From positions 3,988,088 through 4,052,087 of the forward strand of contig NZ_CP036268.1 of the NCBI RefSeq assembly GCF_007744515.1: a DNA stretch of 64,000 nucleotides, given 5' to 3'. This DNA comes from Stratiformator vulcanicus. GTDB lineage: Bacteria; Planctomycetota; Planctomycetia; Planctomycetales; Planctomycetaceae. The position numbers and the translations under genes were made by a program. This document shows positions 50,856 through 58,050 of the stretch, in pieces; the stretch's first letter is position 1, and every line of letters starts with the position of its first letter. The notes beneath the pieces were generated by a model, which had not been told where the DNA came from, searched no databases, and worked only from the letters and a program-made list of their open reading frames with translations.

Positions 50856-51147
50856 AGCGATAGCGTTGATAGATGCGCTCGGTTTGGTTCGGTCGAGCTA
50901 CAAGGCTACAGGTGGCGTCGCGGCCTCGCAATCGCGTCGGCGCTCCACGAAACGCCACATCGGGTCAAGGTACCGGAACGTTCCGATTGAACGCTCTGCG
51001 TTGAGCCAACCGGCGTCGGGGAGATAGACTTGTTCGGCTTGCGAACGCATTCCGCACGCACATTTTCAGGTCGGGTCGATTTCTCGCCCCAAACACAATA
51101 CCCGGCCCGTGGCAACAGCGGGTCGAATCTTGCAAAGAGGCATCATC

Positions 51148-54100
51148 GTGCAGCGCCATGCACTTCTTGTCGGTTCTAGTCTTTTCCTGACAGGTCTATT
51201 CCTGCTCGGTCGTGTCTCGACCGCGGGCGAAGTTGTGCCGGTGTCGCCGGAACAGAATTACGCCCCCGAGATCGCCGAAGCATCCAACGGCGGCGAGTTG
51301 GCGTTGGAGTCGTTCCAAATTCCCGATGGCATGACCGGGAAGGTCACTGCCGCCGAGCCTGACTTGGCCAACCCGGTCGCGTTCTGGATCACGCCCGACG
51401 GGCGGTTTTACGTTTGCGAAACATTCCGCCAGCAAAAAGGGGTCGAAGACAACCGCTATCACCTCTACTGGCTGTCGGACGATCTGAAAGCTCAGACCGT
51501 CGCCGACCGCCGAGCGTATATGCTCAAACATCTCGGCGACGAAGCCGGTCTCTACGAACTCGAGCACGACCGCATTCGACTGCTTATCGACAACGATGGC
51601 GACGGAAAGGTGGAGGAATCGAGAGTCTTCGCCGACGGGTTCAACGACCTCGTCGACGGGACCGGCGCGGGCGTGCTGGAGCACAACGGCAACGTCTACT
51701 ACACCTGCATTCCGAAACTCTATCGACTCGAAGACACGAACGACGACGGCGTCGCCGATCAGCAGGAAACGATGTTCGACGGCTTCGGTGTCCGCTTCGC
51801 CTTCCGCGGGCACGACATGCACGGCCTGACGATCGGACCGGACAACCGGCTCTACTTCAGCATCGGCGACCGCGGGTTTCACGTGATGACCGAAGAGGGT
51901 GAACTGCTCCACAAACCCGACACCGGCGCGATCTTTCGCTGCGAACTGGACGGCTCTGACTTGGAAATCTTCGCTTCCGGTCTGAGGAATCCGCAGGAAC
52001 TGGCGTTCGACAACTACGGCAACCTGTTCACGGGCGATAACAACTCCGACAGCGGCGACCTCGCGCGATGGGTCCACGTCATTGAAGGTATGGATGCCGG
52101 CTGGCGGATGTATTACCAGTACCTCGACGATCGCGGCCCGTTCAATCGCGAAAGGATTTGGTATCCGTACCGGAGTGATCCCGAGACGACCGCGATTCAG
52201 CCGGCCTATATTCTTCCCCCGGTGGCTAACATCAGCGACGGGCCGTCCGGTTTGGCGGCCTATCCCGGGGTGGGGCTTCCGAAGCGATATGACAATCACT
52301 TCTTTCTGTGCGACTTTCGCGGCGGGCCGACAAATAGCGGCGTGCGGTCCTTCGGTGTGAAGCCGAAGGGGGCGTCGTTCGAGTTGGTCGATTCCCACGA
52401 ATTCTTGTGGCGAATTCTCGTGACCGACTGCGACTTCGGTTACGACGGCGGATTCTTTGCGCTCGATTGGGTGCAGGGCTGGGAAGGGCCGGGGAAGGGG
52501 CGAATCTACCGCTTCGCCCACCCGGAATTCGAAGAAGCGGCGGCGAAGTCGGGAGAGATCCTCCGCAACGGCCTCGGCGACATGTCGTCGGCCGAATTGA
52601 TCGGGCTGTTTGAAAATAGGGACAAGCGCGTTCGCCAAGCCGCTCATCTGCAACTGGCGTCCCGGCCGATGTCGGATTGGCCCGACGACAAGATTCGCGG
52701 CGTGGCCTCGACCGACGAAACGATTCCGCGACTGCACCTGCTGTGGGCACTGGGCATTCAGGCACGCGCAGGCAATAGCGACGCGGTTCCCGCGATCACG
52801 GCGCAGCTTTCGTCGAGCGATCCTTGGGTCCGCACGGTCGCATTGCGAGTGCTTCGCGATGTCGTGTGCGGGTCTGACTCGCCTTCCGGCGAGCCGTGCG
52901 ATGCGGCCTCGCCGGCCATCATTCGGCAAGCCGCTTCTCTATTGGCCGACCCGGATGCCCGAGTGAGGGCGGAAGCGGCGCTGCTCATCGGTCGGGCGGG
53001 CGGGCGTTTCATGGGTACCCAAGACGAAGCCGGCACGGCGACTGAGGCGATCGAGCCGCTGCTCAATGTGCTCGTTCAGAACAGCGGTAACGATGCCGCC
53101 TTGAGACACGCAGCCGTCATGGGTTTGACCGGCATCGCCAAGCGAAATGTCGCCCCACTGCTCGAATTTGCCGATCACAAGAATCCGGAAGCCCGCCTCG
53201 GCGTGCTGCTGGCCCTGCGGCGGATGAAGAGCCCGGAAATTGCCGGATTCCTGACCGATGAAGACCCCGGTATTCAACTCGAAGCAGCCCGCGCCGTGCA
53301 CGACCTCGCGATCGACAATGCCGCGGAGAGATTGGCCGCCGTTCGATTCGACCACTCAGACGACGCCGCGCGGGTTGATGCTCTGGCTCGACGAATCATC
53401 GCTGCGAACTTTCGGCTCGGCGGCCGCGAACATGCGGCCCGTGTTCTCTCGACCGCTTCGAATGAAAAGTTGTCGAAATCCCTGCGCCTTGAGGCCTTGA
53501 GTGCTATGGCGGCCTGGCAGGAACCGGGTCCGCTCGATCGGGTGATTAATAAGTATCGCCCGATCGAAAGTCCGCGTCAGACCGAGTTCATGGCCGAACT
53601 ACTCGCGCCACATCTGTCTGACTTCTTCAAAAGCGATGTCGACTTCGCGCGACCGGCGATTGAGTTGTCGGCCCAATACGGTGTGGAGGCCGTTGCGGAC
53701 GAGGTCGCTGCGATCGCGGATGCATCCGACGCCGATCCGGCGACTCGAGAAGCCGCGTTGCAAGCAGCCGTTTCGCTGCGGGGCGATGCAGCTTCGGAGG
53801 TCGTCCGCCGTGCGGTCCGAGCGGATTCCCCGCTTGTTCGCTCCACGGCACGACGCCTGCTCATCAAAATCGACCCGGACGACGCGGTGAAACAACTCAA
53901 GCTCGCGCTTCGTGACGGGACCGTCGAAGAACAGCAGTCGGCCATTGCCGGTCTGGTCAAACTGGAAACGGCCGAGGCCGATGCGGTTCTGCTCGAATGG
54001 TTCGACAAGTTCCTCGCCGGTTCGGCACCGGCCGCGATTCAACTCGATTTAATCGAAGCCGCCGAGCAGCGGAATTCAGTCGCGTTTGAGGACCGGATTG

Positions 54101-54621
54101 CCTCTTATAGTTCGACACTCTCGGACGGCGATCCGATCGCCAAATACCGGGTCAGCCTCGAAGGCGGAGACCCGGAGAACGGCTATGCGATCTTCTTTGG
54201 GCGCAGCGATGCTTCCTGCCGCCGCTGCCATGCCGTCGTCGACAACAAGATTCTGGTCGGGCCGAATCTTGCGGGCATCGGCGCGGAAAAGACCAAGGAG
54301 TATCTGCTGGAATCGCTCGTTCTGCCCGGTAAAGCGATCGCCAAAGGTTTCGAGACGGTGATTGTCGTGACCGCCGAGGGCAAGATCGTCGCCGGGATCA
54401 AACGCTTTGAGGACGACGAGAAACTGATTCTGGTCAAGCCGACCGGCGAGAACGTCACCATCTTGCAGGATGACATCGACGATGTCGCCCCCGGCAAGTC
54501 GGGCATGCCCGAGGACCTGATCAAGTATCTGTCGCGCTCCGACGTCCGCGATCTGGTCGCGTACCTGGCGTCGCTTAAAGACAAGAACGCCACGACGGAG
54601 TCAGCCGCCGGTCACGAGTAG
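51148..54621 (+). CDS. PVC-type propeller / HEAT / cytochrome c protein
   Basis: 1157 residues from GTG 51148 (AGAGG upstream); a GTG at 51109 is less likely. Signal peptide, then a soluble-glucose-dehydrogenase-like beta-propeller (~40-440; FQIPDGMTGKVTAAEPDLAN, GLRNPQELAFDNYGNLFTGD). HEAT-type helical repeats follow (~460-1000). A C-terminal cytochrome c domain has the heme motif CRRCH (C1024, C1027, H1028) and axial Met1120 in SGMPED. This is the membrane- or surface-associated PVC cytochrome protein class, thought to oxidise sugars. Substrate unknown. Confidence 0.93.
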   Translation: MQRHALLVGSSLFLTGLFLLGRVSTAGEVVPVSPEQNYAPEIAEASNGGELALESFQIPDGMTGKVTAAEPDLANPVAFWITPDGRFYVCETFRQQKGVEDNRYHLYWLSDDLKAQTVADRRAYMLKHLGDEAGLYELEHDRIRLLIDNDGDGKVEESRVFADGFNDLVDGTGAGVLEHNGNVYYTCIPKLYRLEDTNDDGVADQQETMFDGFGVRFAFRGHDMHGLTIGPDNRLYFSIGDRGFHVMTEEGELLHKPDTGAIFRCELDGSDLEIFASGLRNPQELAFDNYGNLFTGDNNSDSGDLARWVHVIEGMDAGWRMYYQYLDDRGPFNRERIWYPYRSDPETTAIQPAYILPPVANISDGPSGLAAYPGVGLPKRYDNHFFLCDFRGGPTNSGVRSFGVKPKGASFELVDSHEFLWRILVTDCDFGYDGGFFALDWVQGWEGPGKGRIYRFAHPEFEEAAAKSGEILRNGLGDMSSAELIGLFENRDKRVRQAAHLQLASRPMSDWPDDKIRGVASTDETIPRLHLLWALGIQARAGNSDAVPAITAQLSSSDPWVRTVALRVLRDVVCGSDSPSGEPCDAASPAIIRQAASLLADPDARVRAEAALLIGRAGGRFMGTQDEAGTATEAIEPLLNVLVQNSGNDAALRHAAVMGLTGIAKRNVAPLLEFADHKNPEARLGVLLALRRMKSPEIAGFLTDEDPGIQLEAARAVHDLAIDNAAERLAAVRFDHSDDAARVDALARRIIAANFRLGGREHAARVLSTASNEKLSKSLRLEALSAMAAWQEPGPLDRVINKYRPIESPRQTEFMAELLAPHLSDFFKSDVDFARPAIELSAQYGVEAVADEVAAIADASDADPATREAALQAAVSLRGDAASEVVRRAVRADSPLVRSTARRLLIKIDPDDAVKQLKLALRDGTVEEQQSAIAGLVKLETAEADAVLLEWFDKFLAGSAPAAIQLDLIEAAEQRNSVAFEDRIASYSSTLSDGDPIAKYRVSLEGGDPENGYAIFFGRSDASCRRCHAVVDNKILVGPNLAGIGAEKTKEYLLESLVLPGKAIAKGFETVIVVTAEGKIVAGIKRFEDDEKLILVKPTGENVTILQDDIDDVAPGKSGMPEDLIKYLSRSDVRDLVAYLASLKDKNATTESAAGHE

Positions 54622-54736: not shown

Positions 54737-56281
54737 TCAGAACAGGTCTTTGAGCGCCGCAAGGATCGCGCTGGTTCCCGCCGTCGGTTCATCGTAGTGC
54801 CACATCGTGCGAATGAGATCGAACATCATCATTCCGCAAACGGCCAGGGCCGTACTTGTTGCGAAGAGGCCGACGACGGTCATCACACCGAATTCGTGCT
54901 CGACCGGGGCGGCTTTGGCAACCGGAGTGAAATCGCCCTGACTCTCGCCGGCGTGAATCTCTTCCTCGAAGTCTTCGTCGGCCGCATCGAAGACGTCTTC
55001 TTCCTCGTCGCCGAAGTCTTCGTCCGCCTCATCAAATTCATCGAACGATTCATCCGCGAACGATTCATCATCCTCAATGTCGAAGTCGTCCTGATCTTCA
55101 AGCTCTTCGGTCTCTTCGTGATCGGACCGCTTGACGAAGGTGGCCGATTCATCGGTCGCGTCATCGTCATCAAACAGGATGATGTTGTCCGCGCTGTCAT
55201 CATCACCGGTCGCAGCGAGTTCGAACTCGCTATCGCCCGAGACGCCTTCTACCGCAGCCATCTCGAGTTCAGTGTCCTGACGGTCTTCGAACGAACCACC
55301 GGCGGCGTCCATCGCGACGGTCTGACCAAGGTCATCACTGTCGGCTTCAAGAGCAATACCGCTGTCAGCGGGGCTCGACAGGCCGATCCCGCTGCTGCCT
55401 GGGGCGTCGTCATCGAGCAGTGAGATGCCGCTGTCGTCATCGAGCGAGATGAACCCGCTGCCGTCCGCCTCGGGTTCATCATCGGCTGCCAGAGCGATGC
55501 CGCTGTCGTCTCCGACCATGTCGTCGGCGTCGTCATCCTCGATCCGAATGCCGCTGGCTTCTGAAAAGACGACGGAGTCACCTTCCTCGTCTTCGAGCCT
55601 CACGCCGCTGTCGAGTGCTTCGAGCGAAATTCCGCTTTCGGCGTCGAGGTCGCCCAGTTGAATGCCGCTACCGGTGACGGCGATCGTCTCGCTTTCGCCG
55701 TCGTTTGGGTCGTCGAAGACGAGCGACACATCACTGTCGCTACCTGATTGTTCCTCTTCGCGGGGATCCTTAACGATCCGAATATCGCTGGACGTACCCG
55801 CCTTCTCAGAGACGAGTTTGACGTCGCTGTCGCTGCCGGCTCCGGCTGAGTCATCGGCCAATCGCACGTCGCTGTCGCTATCGGAGGCCGGAATCGCGAC
55901 ATCAGGTGCGGAATCGTTGTCGGTACCCGACAGCGGGTCGTCCAGAATCAACCGGACATCGCTGTCGGAGGTCTCCATGCCGAGGTCGTCATCCTCGTCA
56001 TCGAAGACGCTGCCACCGCTGCTGATCACGGTCGCCGAATCTTCCTCGCCGTCGCTATCGGCGAAACCAAGAATCGAATCGTCGTCGAAGATCGGCACGT
56101 CGGGATCGGAGTCGGCCTGCCGGGAGCGGGCGTACTCTTCGACGTCTTCGGCCTTGTATTTGAACGTGCCGCGATCCTTCAAACCGCGGAGAGCCTGCTC
56201 GGAGCGAAGCTTGTTCAAATCTTCCGAGGAGATCCCGAGACGTTCAACGACTTCCTCGTGGCTGAGATATTTTTTCGACAT
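54737..56281 (-). CDS. HTH protein with acidic SDSDVRL-type repeats and C-terminal TM anchor
   Basis: 514 residues from ATG 56281. N-terminal excisionase-like HTH (MSKKYLSHEEVVERLGISSE, ~1-55). From ~60 to ~330 lie about fourteen copies of a short motif, consensus [D/S]S[D/G][V/I]xL, first as SDSDVRL/SDSDVKL then as DSGISL/SSGIGL, in a strongly acidic background. A Glu/Asp-rich linker (~400-460) precedes one TM helix (VVGLFATSTALAVCGMMMF, ~475-495). The HTH part would be cytoplasmic and the anchor would hold it at the membrane. Function unknown. Confidence 0.8.
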   Translation of the reverse strand: MSKKYLSHEEVVERLGISSEDLNKLRSEQALRGLKDRGTFKYKAEDVEEYARSRQADSDPDVPIFDDDSILGFADSDGEEDSATVISSGGSVFDDEDDDLGMETSDSDVRLILDDPLSGTDNDSAPDVAIPASDSDSDVRLADDSAGAGSDSDVKLVSEKAGTSSDIRIVKDPREEEQSGSDSDVSLVFDDPNDGESETIAVTGSGIQLGDLDAESGISLEALDSGVRLEDEEGDSVVFSEASGIRIEDDDADDMVGDDSGIALAADDEPEADGSGFISLDDDSGISLLDDDAPGSSGIGLSSPADSGIALEADSDDLGQTVAMDAAGGSFEDRQDTELEMAAVEGVSGDSEFELAATGDDDSADNIILFDDDDATDESATFVKRSDHEETEELEDQDDFDIEDDESFADESFDEFDEADEDFGDEEEDVFDAADEDFEEEIHAGESQGDFTPVAKAAPVEHEFGVMTVVGLFATSTALAVCGMMMFDLIRTMWHYDEPTAGTSAILAALKDLF

Positions 56282-56737: not shown

Positions 56738-57955
56738 TCACGCCACGCTAGCCGTTTCAGACGGGATATTGCGAATTTTGACCCGCGCCGCGGCAGCGAA
56801 TAGCAGCAGGCCGAGCCCGGCTGAGGCGATGAGCGAAAGTAATTCGGGAACTCCCCACGTCGTGAGCATCGCCCAGCCACGGTAGTCCGGCCACCAGAAC
56901 TGCATCGTCGACCAATCCCACAGGACGAGCTGCACCAGTGCCGCGGTAGCGAATGCAGCGATGGCCGGAATTGAAACGAGAACAGGGATCATCCGGGTCG
57001 CCGTCTTGAGCGCGACCTCAATCAGACCGGCCAACAGAATCGTCGCCATGATGAATTGCCAGCCGAACGTCAGCCCGACGATCGCGGCGGCGAACGGTAA
57101 CCCGAAGCGGTCCCGACCGCCTACGACGGCGCGCGCCGTAAATCCGATGACCATCCCGACCGTCAGACCGATCACGGCATCGATCACCCCGGCCAATTCG
57201 ATCGTCAATCTGACCGGAGTTTGCCCAAGGACGAACTCCGCCAGCGTGAGCGAGATGCCGTAAACCCACTCCGGACGAGGGTTGAGGAAGCCGATCGGGT
57301 GCAGGTGCTCCCCGAACAGACTCACAATCAGGCCGACCCCGATCCCCCAGCGCCACAGTCCGGCCGGAGTCTCATGACCATCGACGGCCATCAGCGCCGC
57401 CCCGAACAGCAGGGTCATCGCCCAAGCATGAAAGAGGCACGTGCCAATCAGATCCCAAGGCGTCTCCCACATCAGCCACACCAAGGTCTGATCGGAATAG
57501 CGGGCCTGAAACGGCAGATTCCATCCGCCGGCGAAGACCTCGACCGTCGCCAACAATAGAAAGATCAGACCGGTGGAAGCTTCAACGAGCGGGTACCTCG
57601 GCGAAATCGGTTCGCGACAGGCCCGGCAACGTCCGCGGAGAATCAACCATCCCAAAACAGGTATGTTGTCCCGAAGTCGAATGGGCGTCTCGCATTTCGG
57701 GCACCGCGACGGCGGGTGATTGAGCGACAGCCCGGCGGGCATCCGATAAACAACGACGTTCAGAAAGCTCCCGATCGTCGCCCCGAGGCAGAAGACCCAG
57801 CCGACCGTGAAAGCCACGAACAAGAAGTTCATCGAATCAAACGTGGAGTTCGCTTCGCTGTAGCCGCTTTCGCCGGTGATGCCGCAACCACCGAGAGCGA
57901 GCGCGACGACCCCCGTCCAAACCAGGATCAACCTTCGATGAAGTGACGAACCCAT
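56738..57955 (-). CDS. Prepilin peptidase / N-methyltransferase (A24)
   Basis: 405 residues from ATG 57955 (GTG 57973 is also open). The N-terminal DiS_P_DiS domain has ATIGSFLNVVVYRMP then two zinc pairs, CPKC and CRAC. The C-terminal A24 part has the first active-site Asp in MAVDGHETPAG; the second (GxGD) site reads GGRDRFG, so the GxGD pattern is degenerate. The enzyme cuts and methylates prepilin leaders, such as those of the two DUF1559 proteins in this window. Roughly nine TM helices. Confidence 0.85.
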   Translation of the reverse strand: MGSSLHRRLILVWTGVVALALGGCGITGESGYSEANSTFDSMNFLFVAFTVGWVFCLGATIGSFLNVVVYRMPAGLSLNHPPSRCPKCETPIRLRDNIPVLGWLILRGRCRACREPISPRYPLVEASTGLIFLLLATVEVFAGGWNLPFQARYSDQTLVWLMWETPWDLIGTCLFHAWAMTLLFGAALMAVDGHETPAGLWRWGIGVGLIVSLFGEHLHPIGFLNPRPEWVYGISLTLAEFVLGQTPVRLTIELAGVIDAVIGLTVGMVIGFTARAVVGGRDRFGLPFAAAIVGLTFGWQFIMATILLAGLIEVALKTATRMIPVLVSIPAIAAFATAALVQLVLWDWSTMQFWWPDYRGWAMLTTWGVPELLSLIASAGLGLLLFAAAARVKIRNIPSETASVA

Positions 57956-58050
57956 CGGGAAATCGTTTTTCACGGTCAGACGACAGCCAGTTCGATGCCA
58001 GTTCGTTGAACGATATTACCGCGATCGTCGCCACCAACGGCGCAAAAGAA

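Follow-up and report, generated by a model that had tools for sequence, protein, structure and literature searches.

An acidic motif-array protein with a helix-turn-helix head and a predicted C-terminal membrane anchor in Stratiformator vulcanicus and related planctomycetes

The window analysed here, a stretch of 64,000 nt of the Stratiformator vulcanicus genome in which all positions below are given unless another locus is named, contains a gene (54737-56281, minus strand) whose product, the focal protein, combines a helix-turn-helix (HTH) domain, short acidic repeats and a transmembrane (TM) helix. What might such a protein do at the membrane? A sequence-only reading had proposed either a membrane-tethered regulator or a docking platform for a partner that recognises the motif. 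The gene is of wider interest, being seemingly universal in Planctomycetia, mostly single-copy and accompanied by a phylum-wide relative, conserved gene partners and a testable motif. In planctomycetes cell division proceeds without FtsZ, and P. limnophila possesses 108 essential proteins of unknown function that are phylum-specific (PMC10632474). The anatomy of the protein, the constraint on its motifs, its distribution and its gene linkage could be established. Our best reading, to which we give a probability of about 0.5, is a tail-anchored scaffold on the cytoplasmic side of the membrane, with multivalent docking motifs, that forms part of a cell-envelope module. It is preferred because of the tail anchor, the cytoplasmic arm, the slow-evolving array of variable copy number and the envelope-type gene context.

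Architecture of the protein

The gene encodes 514 aa organised as HTH, acidic motif arm and C-terminal membrane anchor, and is present as a single copy in the 5.23 Mb one-contig genome. Its previously assigned coordinates, strand and start are correct, the start M..KKYL being common to all homologues. The AlphaFold model, based on 38 aligned relatives, possesses a confident winged helix at aa 1-54, no structure at aa 61-465 and helices at aa 466-494 and 501-513. Together with hydropathy and the motif pattern, it agrees with the architecture first read from the sequence.

The head of the protein (aa 1-54; 56120-56281, minus strand) is a winged HTH of the MerR/RacA/excisionase type, as seen from the AlphaFold confidence (pLDDT mostly >90) and the Foldseek matches. 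Pfam HTH_17 (PF12728) matched aa 5-54 with E 1.5e-4 and 22.3 bits, against a gathering cut-off of 27 bits; the orthologue L046 reached 38.3 bits, and the relatives L184 and L190 about 30 bits. Foldseek matches included RacA, RdfS, BldC and Pukovnik Xis (E 5e-3 to 0.1), the best PDB match being the RacA DNA-binding domain, with a modest E of 5e-3 and 20% identity. A search of PDB sequences with this profile of the HTH was uninformative, the one good score going to a designed repeat protein, with DafA as a weak match (E 0.27). The earlier term "excisionase-type" is thus suitable for the fold, but nothing ties the focal protein to recombination. The head is a possible but doubtful DNA binder: the nearest solved folds are DNA binders, yet the HTH is nearly neutral in the homologues (median net charge +1), the recognition helix possesses acidic residues at its start in most of them, and the wing contains an invariant Asp.

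The arm comprises about 400 residues with a net charge of about -0.23 per residue, and is disordered in the AlphaFold model. Its later part is a conserved acidic stretch (aa 349-465; 54887-55237, minus strand), predicted to be disordered, which includes SEFEL, NIILFDDDD and DVFDAADEDF.

The arm is followed by a TM helix at aa 466-494, with a hydropathy core at 469-487 (54800-54886, minus strand), and by a C-terminal amphipathic helix at aa 501-513 (54743-54781, minus strand), predicted by AlphaFold and conserved in the homologue alignment. Hydropathy analysis detected exactly one TM, near the C-terminus and with 23-37 residues beyond it, in 89/89 Planctomycetia homologues, and an N-terminal TM or signal in none of the 89. 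One TM, a short C-tail and the absence of an N-terminal signal would correspond to the tail-anchored pattern. Lys-rich C-tails occur in several distant relatives that have two TMs. According to the positive-inside rule, the charge of the flanks indicates the cytoplasmic side, which suggests that both ends of these relatives are cytoplasmic. Since the single-TM versions have little charge bias flanking the TM, the proposed topology rests on the relatives and on the absent signal peptide.

Distribution and gene neighbourhood in Planctomycetota

The search of 392 sampled genomes with a profile of the C-terminal anchor revealed matches in 62 Planctomycetia genomes and one weak match outside the class. 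No member of Planctomycetaceae or Planctomycetia figures among the non-matching genomes listed, and the gene is seemingly universal in the class (62/62), as read from a listing apparently ordered by kinship. Matching records in Planctomycetaceae include Gimesia, Schlesneria, Planctomicrobium and Fuerstiella. The HTH profile found a match in 158 of the 195 genomes of the phylum, nearly always one copy each. All twenty distant relatives that were read outside the class possess the HTH, an acidic linker and one or two C-terminal TMs, with motifs that differ from the SD and SG types described below. In the loci L185-L200 another strongly conserved motif, GSGSGLLDLTRExDDTSLGAELLDEI, was found in the acidic arm.

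Gene-context counts refer to the matches listed, and out-of-class genomes are those outside Planctomycetia with both matches listed. Among the matches listed, a small Pfam-orphan membrane protein is encoded immediately upstream of the HTH gene in 74 of 77 out-of-class genomes, and this protein is also present upstream in most other families of Planctomycetia. Its profile found no match among the listed Planctomycetaceae, including the S. vulcanicus genome. The small protein is predicted to consist of a TM helix, a four-stranded sheet and two helices, the sheet being read as a putative extracytoplasmic beta domain. The fold search gave weak matches only, including parts of beta-propellers (best E 0.06). 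An example at L070:8615-8953 carries the signature VIDPxxRxLxVYxVD...LKSxRNIxxDLxLxEFN.

A gene for an OmpA/Pal-like lipoprotein, with an OmpA domain by Pfam (PF00691), was found directly downstream in 35 of 72 out-of-class genomes from 19 families, among the matches listed; 26 of the 35 had not been used in building the profile. In examples such as L042:8862-9674 and L190:3108-3857, the OmpA-domain lipoprotein also has a coiled-coil-like stretch. In Planctomycetaceae, 13 of 98 loci, many of them incomplete, have an OmpA-family lipoprotein gene immediately after the HTH gene and in the same orientation; the neighbourhood is otherwise not conserved. The module is not intact in S. vulcanicus, where the upstream gene has no match and the OmpA homologue (G000:C1:1524888) is unlinked to the HTH gene. 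The search for a co-occurring gene, suggested earlier as a check, thus yielded two, the small membrane protein upstream and the OmpA lipoprotein downstream.

Other neighbours were observed in particular groups. In several other Planctomycetia families, genes of the ResB and CcsA type, for cytochrome c maturation, are located downstream, and family f5 possesses a divergent MotA/TolQ/ExbB gene and two genes judged ExbD-like by eye (both observations from the loci L065, L204-L210 and L215-L223). In L185, L188, L189, L191 and L200 a same-strand downstream gene resembles, by eye, phosphatidylserine decarboxylase. Within the window, the upstream neighbour (56738-57973, minus strand) matched the prepilin peptidase N-terminal domain only (A24_N, E 8e-34), with no match to the catalytic A24 domain at E up to 1, and the downstream neighbour (51109-54621, plus strand) encodes a large DUF7133/HEAT/cytochrome c protein. 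Neither recurs in the loci read from relatives, and both were rejected as partners and regarded as chance neighbours.

Comparison with known systems

The plan of the focal protein resembles ToxR-type regulators, RacA and RodZ, but those defining features of ToxR and RodZ that were tested are absent. The NCBIfam search with the whole protein detected no family at E up to 0.01, Pfam contains no family model spanning it, and the literature search, which covered mostly open-access literature, found the motif or the plan nowhere described. Within these sources, the sequence-only reading was right that no described system has this plan. To our knowledge, a disordered, membrane-tethered arm with repeated, conserved docking motifs is described in few bacterial proteins.

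A membrane-tethered transcription regulator similar to ToxR/CadC is possible, but we consider it rather unlikely. The HTH would bind promoters, the acidic motifs would contact RNA polymerase or a co-regulator, the small upstream protein would be a periplasmic sensor, and the gene for the OmpA lipoprotein may be a target of the regulator. ToxS is the periplasmic sensor partner of ToxR. Similar to ToxR/CadC with ToxS, the focal protein possesses an N-terminal, probably cytoplasmic winged helix and one TM, and in most of the phylum the gene is adjacent to that of a small membrane protein, here with one predicted TM helix and an extracytoplasmic beta domain. The adjacent outer-membrane-type gene and the fold matches to DNA binders (RacA, BldC, excisionases) also favour a regulator. 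However, the winged helix is MerR-like and not OmpR-like, Pfam gave no match to an OmpR/Trans_reg_C-type winged HTH in the focal protein or the tested relatives, and the 400-residue acidic motif arm is foreign to ToxR/CadC. The periplasmic sensory domain that follows the TM in ToxR/CadC is absent, the C-tail being too short at its 23-37 residues. The near-neutral HTH, the usually acidic start of the recognition helix and the invariant Asp in the wing argue against promoter binding as well.

A chromosome-to-membrane anchor similar to RacA or Noc appears improbable. In such an anchor the HTH would bind DNA at many sites, and the long arm would act as a spacer on which segregation or division proteins dock. 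The best structural match of the head is the DNA-binding domain of RacA, the chromosome anchor of Bacillus, and the gene is part of the core of a class of bacteria whose nucleoids are condensed according to PMC10632474. Nevertheless, the near-neutral HTH with its acidic recognition-helix start casts doubt on DNA binding, the arm would repel DNA by its charge, and chromosome segregation genes were not seen linked in the loci read. RacA, moreover, is not known to carry either a motif array or a TM anchor.

Similar to the focal protein, RodZ possesses a cytoplasmic HTH and a single TM, and the HTH of RodZ is protein-binding. RodZ belongs to another HTH family and lacks a motif arm, whereas the focal anchor is C-terminal with a short tail; Pfam detected neither a RodZ-type HTH nor the RodZ periplasmic domain in the focal protein or the tested relatives. 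In PopZ-like hubs, an acidic disordered region serves as client hub. Unlike PopZ, the focal protein is membrane-anchored and carries repeated motifs. The likeness to OmpA/Pal-family lipoproteins concerns the product of the linked gene (PF00691) and not the focal protein.

Motif arrays and their putative role in docking

The arm contains two motif blocks. The SD block (aa 105-188; 55718-55969, minus strand) possesses five SDSDV[RK]L-type motifs, with S at aa 107, 137, 152, 165 and 183. The SG block (aa 204-312; 55346-55672, minus strand) possesses eight [D/E/S]SGI[SA]L-type motifs, at aa 205, 216, 225, 243, 260, 284, 297 and 307, and GSGFISL. Besides these thirteen strict motifs, two degenerate ones were found, GSGFISL (275) and SEFEL (351), so that the original count of fourteen is fair, the number being 13-15 depending on the forms included. 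The described shift from one form to another along the protein was recovered; the described even spacing is not strict, with a mode of 9-10 residues in the SG block and irregular distances of 11-18 in the SD block.

Composition-preserving shuffles of the arm (n=100) gave a mean of 0.57 motif matches and a maximum of 3. The search for homologues sharing the motif series yielded 89 distinct Planctomycetia homologues, nearly all of them with motifs far above the shuffles, in most roughly 10-20 times, and with medians of 7 SD and 7 SG motifs. In 87 of the 88 homologues having both blocks, the SD motifs come first. The SD consensus (692 motifs) is S(81%) D(91%) S D V(84%) R/K(68%) L(90%) V/I, and the SG consensus (594 motifs) is D/E(92%) S G I(83%) S/A(70%) L(96%) E/D(57%). 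Motif copy number ranges from about 6 to 30, with letters and block order unchanged, as expected of independent docking sites. Arrays are shorter in other families of Planctomycetia, some with SDFEL-type forms.

Selection was compared among nine species of one genus (g56), with motif columns taken as those conforming in at least half of the rows. The motifs had a pN/pS of 0.033 and the linkers one of 0.176; between these values lay the HTH (0.101), the later acidic stretch (0.106) and the C-terminal region (0.166), with similar pS in all parts of the gene. As a control for selection bias, motifs were defined in one species and identity was measured among the other eight, giving 91-99% in the motifs versus 74-78% in the linkers. 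Alignment gaps affected 21/122 linker columns and 1/78 motif columns. No other part of the protein is preserved as strictly as the motifs, which are therefore probably docking sites for a putative partner at the cell membrane. The earlier idea of a docking platform gains support from the slow evolution of the motifs, their kept order and their counts above shuffles.

In the preferred scaffold, the C-terminal TM helix would insert into the cytoplasmic membrane and leave the N-terminus on the cytoplasmic side, and the winged helix would be displayed at the tip of the acidic disordered arm of about 400 residues. Along the arm, short linear motifs in two successive arrays (SDSDV[RK]LV, then DSGI[SA]LE) would offer multivalent docking sites. 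In docking, a motif would probably add a short strand (V/I-x-L) to a basic-rimmed hydrophobic groove of one or two putative cytoplasmic partners. The protein may belong to a cell-envelope module, since its gene is mostly paired with that of a small membrane-anchored protein and often with that of an OmpA-type peptidoglycan-binding lipoprotein. More speculatively, the small membrane protein, the tail-anchored HTH scaffold and the OmpA lipoprotein could form a three-gene, phylum-defining planctomycete envelope module. In these FtsZ-less bacteria the module would link the envelope to the nucleoid or to a cytoplasmic machine, and the array would serve as a platform for clients, differing among lineages in copy number and motif type; we regard this extension as tentative.

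The constraint on the motifs could alternatively reflect phosphorylation sites or fold-back onto the protein's own HTH. The motifs would then dock on the HTH in cis or in trans, or be targets of a Ser/Thr kinase, leading to clustering or autoinhibition. Each motif possesses a conserved Ser among acidic residues, and many copies favour clustering; however, no motif is confidently structured in the AlphaFold model and a kinase gene is not consistently linked in the loci read, and we judge such a switch quite improbable.

Drift in a low-complexity acidic spacer is very improbable and was rejected. The arm is compositionally biased and its copy number variable, but the shuffles, the pN/pS values, lowest in the gene for the motifs, the conserved order and the identity of motifs defined in one species all contradict drift; the homologues do not have the unrelated, motif-free linkers that drift would leave, and their motifs are kept and slow-evolving. 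A C-terminally anchored surface adhesin with serine-aspartate repeats, to which the SD-rich repeats and the C-terminal hydrophobic segment might point, is the least credible and was rejected as well, given the N-terminal HTH, the lack of an N-terminal signal or TM in all 89 homologues, and the nature of the repeats, which are motifs with a hydrophobic end rather than SD dipeptides.

The search of the S. vulcanicus genome with the strict pattern found no second protein with a motif array. Some Planctomycetaceae (L056, L058, L059, L060) possess, beside the main gene, a paralogous subfamily with the sequence MxxKFLTAxEV... and with a DSG array only or a mixed one.
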